From Candidatus Peregrinibacteria bacterium (GTDB taxonomy: Bacteria; Patescibacteriota; Gracilibacteria; UBA1369; 2-02-FULL-48-14): a stretch of 64,000 nt of DNA. Under the pieces are notes generated by a model that worked only from the letters and a program-made list of their open reading frames with translations, ran no database searches and was not told the DNA's origin. Of this stretch, positions 32,940-35,059 are shown in pieces; within the stretch, counting starts at the first letter, position 1; each line of letters opens with the position of its first letter. Location of the stretch: positions 1 through 64,000 of the forward strand of contig JABHVW010000004.1 in assembly GCA_018658105.1 (NCBI GenBank), given 5' to 3'. Position numbers and translations under genes: made by a program.

Positions 32940-32964
32940 ATTTTTTGTTGTAACTGCAAAAAAT
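32940..32964. terminator. Bidirectional terminator between map and the LCP gene
   Basis: ATTTTTTG (32940-32947) pairs perfectly with CAAAAAAT (32957-32964) around a 9-base loop. The A- and T-runs on both sides suit termination in either direction, though the stem is AT-rich. Confidence 0.5.
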
Positions 32965-33785
32965 TATAGTTGATTACTCACGAACCAGTGTATTGCATCC
33001 CAATTATCATCAAGTGGACGCAAGGTATAAATGGCATATGTCTCACTACAAGTATCAGGATTTGCAGGATCTAAACATTGCTCAACAACAAGCGAAGTTA
33101 AAAAATTAACTGGCTCTTTTACAGTTTTCAAAACATTTCCAGTAGATAAAACTGCCCCATGCGCTAAGTCAAAATTCTGATATCTAAAGTAATAACGCAA
33201 AGCTTCATCAACAGTAATATTCGTTTCAGTCGCAGTAACTGCACGTGAAATGATTTTCAAAACTGCATTGGCATCACCCAAACCCAAACTCTGCGCCTTG
33301 TTTTTCATAGCATCCAAAATGAGCTGCTGCCTCGCTGCCCTATCATAATCCGAAGTTGTATATCGCGAACGAGCCACCCTCAAAGATGCAGTCCCATCCA
33401 AATGATAATCCCCAGCCTCATAATATAAAGTCGAACATACATCACCCTCACAAACTTTATAAGTAGGATCAATCAAATCCTGCTCTAAAGTAACATCGAC
33501 TCCTCCCATCAAATTCACAATATCTTCAAAAGCAAACATATCAATCAATGCAAATTTATGAATTTTATAACCTAAAATTTCCTCCACCCACTTCACCTGC
33601 TCAGTCACACCATAATCGGCATATACACTATTAATCTTTCGCCCCTTCACATATAAATCACGCGGCACACTTACCAATGTAATTTTGCGAGTCGAAGAAT
33701 TTATATTCGCAAAAATCATCGTATCCACATTTGTCCCCTGCCTCCCCATCAACAAAATATTGAAAAAGTCAGGCTCATCAACCAA
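32964..33785 (-). CDS. LytR-CpsA-Psr (LCP) domain, probable C-terminal part of a frame-split gene
   Basis: A 273-residue reading from TTG at 33785, carrying an LCP phosphotransferase domain: FFNILLMGRQGTN, DTMIFANINSSTRKITLVSV with the PRD motif (VSVPRDLYV), a central DYDRAARQQL with the conserved Arg, and RVARSRYTT. LCP enzymes attach wall polymers to peptidoglycan or surface protein and act outside the membrane. This piece has no transmembrane anchor or plausible start; in its frame the reading is open from 33874 back through the A-run. A -1 shift at ten A (33832-33823) joins it to the upstream 422-residue frame and would give one 698-residue anchored protein. Confidence 0.85.
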   Translation of the reverse strand: MVDEPDFFNILLMGRQGTNVDTMIFANINSSTRKITLVSVPRDLYVKGRKINSVYADYGVTEQVKWVEEILGYKIHKFALIDMFAFEDIVNLMGGVDVTLEQDLIDPTYKVCEGDVCSTLYYEAGDYHLDGTASLRVARSRYTTSDYDRAARQQLILDAMKNKAQSLGLGDANAVLKIISRAVTATETNITVDEALRYYFRYQNFDLAHGAVLSTGNVLKTVKEPVNFLTSLVVEQCLDPANPDTCSETYAIYTLRPLDDNWDAIHWFVSNQL

Positions 33786-33790
33786 AGCAT

Positions 33791-35059
33791 TTAAGCTAGG
33801 AATATAATCCGGGAGCGTAAAGTTTTTTTTTTGAAACCAATCTCTAAAGATTGAATTGCCGAAACCAGAGATTCACTCCCCTCACCTGGCCAATCCACAT
33901 TTACTTCACCCGTAGCTTTATCAATATAAAGCATTCTTAAAGTTTCACCTTCTCCATTCAAAATCGGATAAGACAACCGATCCCCAGTCTCAATCAAATC
34001 ACCAATTGTAAATCCAACCTGTTCTAAAGTTTTATTAAATGCACGATCACCCATCAAATCTTCAAACTCTTTTCTACGATCATCTACCAAAATTTGCAAA
34101 TTCGTCCTCAAATCTAAAGTCAAAACATGCGTAATCAATGCATTCAAACCAGCTGGACTCGCAGCAAACTCAGTCTCTTCCCCTTCAACCTCAAGTGTTA
34201 TGCGGCCATCTTCCTTATAAATCAGCAAACTCCCTATTAATCTGCCATCATAATTTTGTACATTAAATCGTCCATCAATAGGAGTTTCAATGAAATCAGA
34301 GAGCAATAAGCCATGTTCATCCAAAAAGCCAAGGAACTCATCATTCAAAACTTCATTTCTAAATAGCTCAACCTGAGCTCTAAAAAAGTCAGCAGCCGAA
34401 CTCTGTCTAGCCAAATCGTCCGTCAAAAATAAATCCAAAGCTGTTAAAGTCACTTCTGCATCTGATGTAGTCTCAAAACCATCAAATGGCATAAATGTAT
34501 CAAATGTAAAATCTCCATCATAATTCAAAGAAACTTTTAGCAAATCTTCAGATAAAGGCTCAGCCCCATAAAAAGTATAAGAAAGTGAATCCTCACTATA
34601 TACCCCCTCAGGAGACAAAAGATGAAGGCCAGAATTTGTCCAATCCTTATCTGTTACATATGTTTTTAAAGCAGCTTCATTAGTAGAAAATAAAGTTTTA
34701 TTATTTTCGTACTCCCCCAGCCTGTCTACATATTGAAAGACTAAAGAAGTTAAGTTTTGGCTTTGCGCAGGCACCAAATCGCCAAGTTCACTAAAATCAT
34801 ACTCTTGCGTAGGTAAAAGCAAAAAAGAACGGATCTGATTCAAATCATTCCCGAAACCTGTTAAATAGTCTTTAGCCTGACTAACTTCAGATATAACCTG
34901 ACTATTGCTCGACTCAATAGAGTCAATAAAAGTCAAACGGTGCCTCATTTCATAAAGCTGGTGCATCTGAAACGCAAGCAGCCCCGCCATGAGCAAAAAG
35001 CCCAAAAACATAAGAGGATTATCTAAAACTTTCTGAAATATATTGCGGCGTTTAGACAT
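33791..35059 (-). CDS. Membrane-anchored protein, probable N-terminal part of the LCP gene
   Basis: A 422-residue frame starting MSKRRNIFQKVLDNPLM with one transmembrane segment (about residues 14-28, FLGFLLMAGLLAFQ) followed by an extracellular region rich in Asp, Glu, Ser and Leu. No Cys and no known enzymatic motif is seen. Two similar short beta patterns (residues ~260-285 NYDGRLIGSLLIYKEDGRIT and ~368-390 NGEGETLRMLYIDKATGEVN) suggest a repeated domain. The frame ends 11 residues after the run of ten A, and switching to the -1 frame there leads straight into the LCP domain. It is therefore best read as the anchor half of the LCP protein. The function of the extracellular part is unknown. 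Confidence 0.8.
   Translation of the reverse strand: MSKRRNIFQKVLDNPLMFLGFLLMAGLLAFQMHQLYEMRHRLTFIDSIESSNSQVISEVSQAKDYLTGFGNDLNQIRSFLLLPTQEYDFSELGDLVPAQSQNLTSLVFQYVDRLGEYENNKTLFSTNEAALKTYVTDKDWTNSGLHLLSPEGVYSEDSLSYTFYGAEPLSEDLLKVSLNYDGDFTFDTFMPFDGFETTSDAEVTLTALDLFLTDDLARQSSAADFFRAQVELFRNEVLNDEFLGFLDEHGLLLSDFIETPIDGRFNVQNYDGRLIGSLLIYKEDGRITLEVEGEETEFAASPAGLNALITHVLTLDLRTNLQILVDDRRKEFEDLMGDRAFNKTLEQVGFTIGDLIETGDRLSYPILNGEGETLRMLYIDKATGEVNVDWPGEGSESLVSAIQSLEIGFKKKTLRSRIIFLA

Follow-up and report, generated by a model that had tools for sequence, protein, structure and literature searches.

Whether a gene for an LCP enzyme that is broken at a run of ten A in a Candidatus Peregrinibacteria genome reflects slippage, phase variation or a homopolymer error, the three options left by the original prediction, is the question raised by this locus. 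The window, that is, the whole stretch of 64,000 nucleotides analyzed here, belongs to a genome of 1.12 Mb (15 contigs, 97% complete) whose named relatives are Candidatus Peregrinibacteria and Peribacteria. We confirmed the A10 run at 33832-33823 on the minus strand, and the frame break noted there earlier was correct. Frame 0 (33791..35059, minus strand), which gives the short form, is an ORF of 422 aa with an ATG start and a TAA at 33793-33791, and it encodes an N-terminal membrane-anchored domain; 411 aa precede the shift, and the frame ends about 10-11 codons past A10, with the tail TLRSRIIFLA (33791..33822, minus strand) and a stop 29 nt beyond the run. A transmembrane helix was predicted from a hydrophobic stretch at residues ~15-35 (34955..35017, minus strand), beyond which a long coiled helix extends (the model shows a helix over residues 15-79). 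The -1 frame (32964..33831, minus strand; TAA at 32966-32964), the C-terminal part of the long form, carries the LCP glycopolymer transferase domain and is open from about 33872, i.e., ~40 nt ahead of the run, with no ATG or GTG ahead of the LCP core and the first TTG at 33785. One extra A in the run would give an uninterrupted protein of 698 aa by conceptual translation, with the predicted junction peptide GFKKKNFTLPDY. The original prediction had claimed the A10 run, the 422-residue anchored frame, the LCP domain in a -1 frame without ATG, GTG or anchor and with one TTG, and a 698-residue fusion with an N-terminal anchor and a C-terminal LCP domain; all of these held, the last as a conceptual translation.

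In a Pfam search, the -1 frame matched PF03816 (E = 7e-31; 107.9 bits against a cut-off of 24.6), meeting the criterion for membership of this family, and it also exceeded the cut-off of TIGR00350 (100 against 62.3). A profile match linked the C-terminal domain to the TagV structure 6uf3 (E 5e-30). Among the homologues, the LCP frame was 42-61% identical and its motif columns were invariant; the invariant Arg and Asp columns of the LCP alignment A2 were D21, R42, D43, R136, R139, R141, R149 and R152, which we take, from what is generally known of the LCP family, to be active-site residues. An LCP domain joined to the N-terminal membrane anchor exists only in the predicted fused protein, and the -1 frame alone is without an anchor. 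One homologue, L010, has lost both the N-domain and the run and carries a short anchor (TM helix) of its own, which agrees with the need of the LCP domain for an anchor. The long form is likely an anchored, extracytoplasmic LCP transferase of ~700 aa, while its transfer of a polymer to the cell wall is inferred, without biochemistry. It has in common with LCP transferases such as Bacillus TagT/U/V the PF03816 C-terminal domain and the extracytoplasmic anchored topology. However, the TagT/U/V-type proteins have a short N-terminal anchor and a single frame, whereas in the window gene an unnamed repeat domain of ~400 aa comes first and the putative slippage site lies between the domains.

Three alpha/beta repeats lie in tandem in the N-domain (33791-35059), and the motif LNEIR-x-FLLLP, which comes after the coiled helix, is conserved. 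Its AlphaFold2 model, built from a 53-row alignment, reached a mean pLDDT of 90.1, and in this prediction the N-terminal helix that includes the anchor continues as a coiled helix before three alpha/beta units. There was no Pfam or NCBIfam match to the domain, and a sequence search found no meaningful match in the PDB. The best PDB match by fold was the YpeB C-terminal domain (5boi), which likewise has repeated alpha/beta units, but the match was weak (E 3e-4, probability 0.66) and the TM-score was just 0.11-0.16, so that we regard it as a lead and not an assignment. A single-sequence AlphaFold prediction of a full-length in-frame homologue (L013) was uninformative (pLDDT 35). We infer that the short form is the anchored N-domain alone, with its TM helix, coiled helix and alpha/beta repeats; the function of both forms is also inferred.

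The window gene lies among housekeeping genes, between a map-type aminopeptidase gene and ribosomal genes. No polymer gene cluster was found in the neighbourhoods inspected (the window, one Peregrinibacteria locus and two from Spirochaetes). The neighbour at the Peregrinibacteria locus is a tRNA methyltransferase gene, and in the two Spirochaetes (L105 and L111) the split LCP gene has, in a stable context, a purH-type gene on one side and on the other a miaB-type radical SAM gene, which begins at the LCP stop. The window's genome carries two further LCP paralogues on other contigs (L001 on C5 and L002 on C14), both single-frame, with open frames of 481 and 420 aa.

The original prediction had proposed comparing homologous genes for one or two frames. 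This check was run, and both kinds were found, with A9-A11 and the layout in two frames kept across the Peregrinibacteria families and in some Spirochaetes. Among 59 related genomes searched, 19 had homologues of the N-domain; the LCP domain was in separate short frames in some genomes and in single frames of 690-750 aa in others, and both junction classes share A9-A11 at the equivalent position. Scanning species genomes with the LCP alignment recovered named Peregrinibacteria and, unexpectedly, Spirochaetes, whose split genes have A9 or A10 followed by CTGA, reading KKN-stop in one frame and KKKL in the other; Spirochaetes also hold in-frame genes with A10-A11 and in-frame genes without a run. 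Searches of 353 genomes of the class and 380 of the phylum turned up the family beyond the window's order in just a few genomes, all of the same class; another order of this class contributed a further three split genes with A9, as well as L207, which is split at T7. We assembled a set of 78 distinct homologous junctions from Candidatus Peregrinibacteria/Peribacteria and their relatives and some Spirochaetes. An A9-A11 run is present at 59 junctions (the window and 58 relatives, two phyla), of which 35 are split, 34 needing -1, equivalent to one more A, and one needing +1, and 24 are in frame. Without such a run, 18 of 19 junctions are in frame and only L207 is split. The frames therefore mismatch at 35/59 junctions with the run vs 1/19 without it (Fisher P 3e-5), showing that the frame disagreement is confined almost wholly to junctions with a long run.

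All five genomes of the window's family that carry the gene have it split; a complete member of this family (G001) lacks the gene, which is therefore not essential there. Two genes from different assemblies (L015 and L017), 94% identical over the gene, both have A10 and are split alike. Several single cases were also observed. In L207 (genome G748), the A-run is lost and the -1 split lies at T7 (GAT TTT TTT CAA TAA), ~60 nt before the LCP core; a stop follows the T7 at once, and possibly one slippery site was replaced here by another. The close sisters L088 and L091 both have A10 but differ in frame state, and what sets them apart appears to be located before the A-run, in the vicinity of a T-run, which may mean that indels in the N-frame close to the junction are tolerated. 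The copy L068 comes from a record titled Nitrospirota, is of Peregrinibacteria type and is nested in that clade, and is probably a mis-binned contig.

In every run-bearing gene, the frame leading on into the LCP domain was set against the frame with one A fewer. In split genes, where the latter is the genomic frame, it stops 1-7 nt past the run in 26/34 cases. In the in-frame genes, where it is hidden, its stop comes no more than 7 nt past the run in 23 of 24, compared with 5.8/24 expected under a synonymous-codon null for the same peptides (P 7e-15); when a single gene stood for each 80%-identity cluster, the count was 15/16 vs 4.3 expected (P 4e-9). This null takes genes, and then clusters, as independent. 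Often the hidden stop arises where a Leu codon has A as its last letter and G comes next (for example, CTC TAG). The immediate stop is not universal, since in the window's family (f1) and in f9 the short form ends 12-42 nt beyond the run. Because early stops occur in both classes, split and in-frame genes encode the same pair of outcomes: in nearly all run-bearing genes, a "short" product of N-domain, Lys run and stop, and a "long" product of N-domain and LCP domain, read with one more A. Neither error nor drift accounts for this shared pair of frames. The original prediction had stated that close relatives with a single intact frame would make the split an assembly error. Such relatives do exist, so that the condition is fulfilled in part, but it has no force here, as they retain the same A-run along with the hidden stop. 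That prediction could not foresee that the arrangement has been conserved or that, in most genomes with a single frame, the short form is what the alternative reading gives.

The composition of the run was also unusual. Among the three Lys codons in it, AAG is never used in any run, while elsewhere in the same genes AAG makes up 34% of Lys codons; in several Spirochaetes it makes up 58-88% elsewhere and is still absent from the run, and one gene of 62% GC also carries A10. In the window, A10 is the sole A/T run of 9 or more, and it is the sole run of 10 or more, and the longest, in the 1.12 Mb genome, where the other seven of the eight A/T runs of at least 9 are exactly 9; the A10 is therefore not a matter of chance. 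Runs of 5-7 in the window were about as frequent as expected and runs of 8 were at a third of expectation, while one run of 9 or more was observed vs ~10-13 expected, runs of 8 or more being about 4-fold rarer than expected; dinucleotide shuffles of the window predict ~22 A9 matches. In a large share of bacterial genomes, selection against slippery A/T runs becomes evident once they reach nine nucleotides (Baranov et al., PMC1088944). Since long runs are rare and A10 is nevertheless kept, the lineage avoids slippage-prone runs but retains its longest one here.

We then placed the frame state on a maximum-likelihood tree built on the LCP domain. The frame state requires 12-13 changes on the tree, at least 8 of them on well-supported branches, and despite these changes almost every Peregrinibacteria branch with a preserved N-domain retains the run. 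Some clades are fixed as split, namely f2, f1 (the window's family) and a group of six rumen Spirochaetes that all have A9. It is likely that selection keeps the run and the two outputs while the genomic default form has switched repeatedly, although that slippage occurs and that both forms function are inferred.

Programmed transcriptional slippage yielding both forms is the best, and a likely, reading of these results, and the comparison supports slippage among the options originally considered. The conserved run, the frame layout, the hidden stops and the conserved LCP frame are shown; the slippage itself, its transcriptional nature and the function of both forms are inferred, without RNA, proteomic or read data. 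In this model, RNA polymerase would slip on the putative site (33823..33832, minus strand, in the window; A9-A11 at the equivalent place in 59 homologous junctions), so that one gene would give mRNAs with n and n+1 (or n-1) A. One class of mRNA would reach a stop soon past the run and produce the short membrane-anchored protein, while the other would be read on into the LCP domain and produce the long anchored enzyme. The window's DNA codes for the short form, and one added A would be required for the long form; in some other species it is the long form that is encoded, and the short form would result from loss of one A. The features expected of slippage genes, a homopolymer of ~9 or more at the frame transition and conservation of the site and of both frames, are met. 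The counter-evidence includes L207, whose T7 is too short for typical polymerase slippage, and the later short-form stops of f1 and f9.

The strongest rival is -1 programmed ribosomal frameshifting on A AAA AAA, in which the long run would serve the ribosome in making the fusion. In its favour, 34/35 run-bearing split genes require exactly -1, every run of A9 or longer contains an in-frame A AAA AAA that meets the heptamer criterion X XXY YYZ, and the T TTT TTT of L207 fits the ribosome better than the polymerase, so that some weight must be left to ribosomal slippage. Against it, seven A would suffice, yet the A-runs of split genes are never shorter than nine. No conserved stimulator was found either: an SD-like motif occurs in only 2/34 split genes and none is conserved, and no 3' RNA structure is conserved (mean fold z -0.33; nested folds only, pseudoknots left out). 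Further, L012 requires +1, a shift that is open to a slipping polymerase but not to -1 ribosomal slippage, and the run with its hidden stop in the 24 in-frame genes remains unexplained, as the short form there needs the opposite shift. We favour the polymerase because the A-run splits all have at least nine A and not seven, no conserved SD-like or 3' element was found, the shift in L012 goes the other way and genes of the in-frame class must lose one A to make the short form; the ribosomal explanation is thus unlikely.

The remaining explanations, sequencing error, phase variation, pseudogene and internal start, were examined and rejected. Phase variation, in which the length of the run in DNA varies between cells and toggles the LCP enzyme on and off, would be suggested by a long homopolymer within a surface-enzyme gene and by a run length of 9-11 that varies among species; but the three frames are used 24:34:1 and not about equally (P 1e-9), whole clades are fixed as split (f2, f1 and the six rumen Spirochaetes), and a conserved LCP frame that was permanently OFF would have to be expressed in some other way, leaving phase variation very unlikely, though no reads were at hand. 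That the true run is A11 in an ordinary one-frame gene, misread because homopolymers are error-prone, draws support from the single-frame relatives, but is all but ruled out by 35 run-bearing split copies with the same run from many independent assemblies, by the five of five split genes in the window's family and by the agreement of L015 and L017. Hardly any room is left for a decayed pseudogene, given the identity and the invariant motif columns of the LCP frame, or for two genes with the LCP domain translated from an internal start such as the TTG at 33785: many split genes (L015, L017, L023, L078, L093, L101, L106, L108 and L112) have no start codon before the core, and the LCP domain would be without an anchor, while L010, the sole homologue without the N-domain, has its own TM helix.

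Taken together, these results indicate that the split is real and conserved and that it is likely a new, unusually well conserved case of a known type of recoding, in which the slippage and its mechanism are inferred. A literature search found no case of recoding for these candidate-phylum bacteria or for LCP enzymes, nor did it return papers on slippage in Patescibacteria or on frameshifting in Peregrinibacteria. A bolder reading of transcriptional slippage, which we can neither favour nor dismiss, is a deeply conserved, genotype-independent two-product gene, in which the run and the frame pair are selected in two phyla, the genomic frame drifts as slippage always gives both products, and the short form would be a ratio-controlled partner or brake of the LCP enzyme; if so, the slippage rate would set the amount of active transferase. 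The natural flips of the default form offer a ready comparative system for asking whether the site, the ratio or the frame is selected, and annotation pipelines will label such genes as frameshifted or drop the LCP enzyme.

Two-product transcriptional slippage is known from scattered genes, while here one family appears to keep it very long in two phyla. In Thermus thermophilus dnaX, transcriptional slippage on A9 gives two length variants from one gene (PMC1088944), but this gene encodes a cytoplasmic DNA polymerase subunit and the long form is the default. Functional proteins are expressed via transcriptional slippage from mxiE, mxiA, spa13 and spa33 of Shigella (cited in PMC4256274); these, however, are secretion-system genes of one organism, with no conserved frame pair shown over deep distance. 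tssM1 of Citrobacter rodentium and tssM3 of Yersinia pseudotuberculosis encode a membrane-anchored envelope protein with a poly-A run just before the stop, and slippage that adds A gives a C-terminal extracytoplasmic domain (PMC4256274). Both lengths and their ratio are needed in C. rodentium tssM1, while Yersinia tssM3 makes the long form by default and the short form through slippage (PMC4256274). By analogy with tssM1, the short and long LCP forms might be a fixed mix of scaffold-only and enzyme-bearing subunits, a possible but inferred role. The proteins are unrelated, and slippage was measured in tssM and is inferred here; the tssM site is reported to be uncommon among tssM genes, whereas the site in the LCP gene is kept in tens of species and two phyla through at least 8 changes of the default form.
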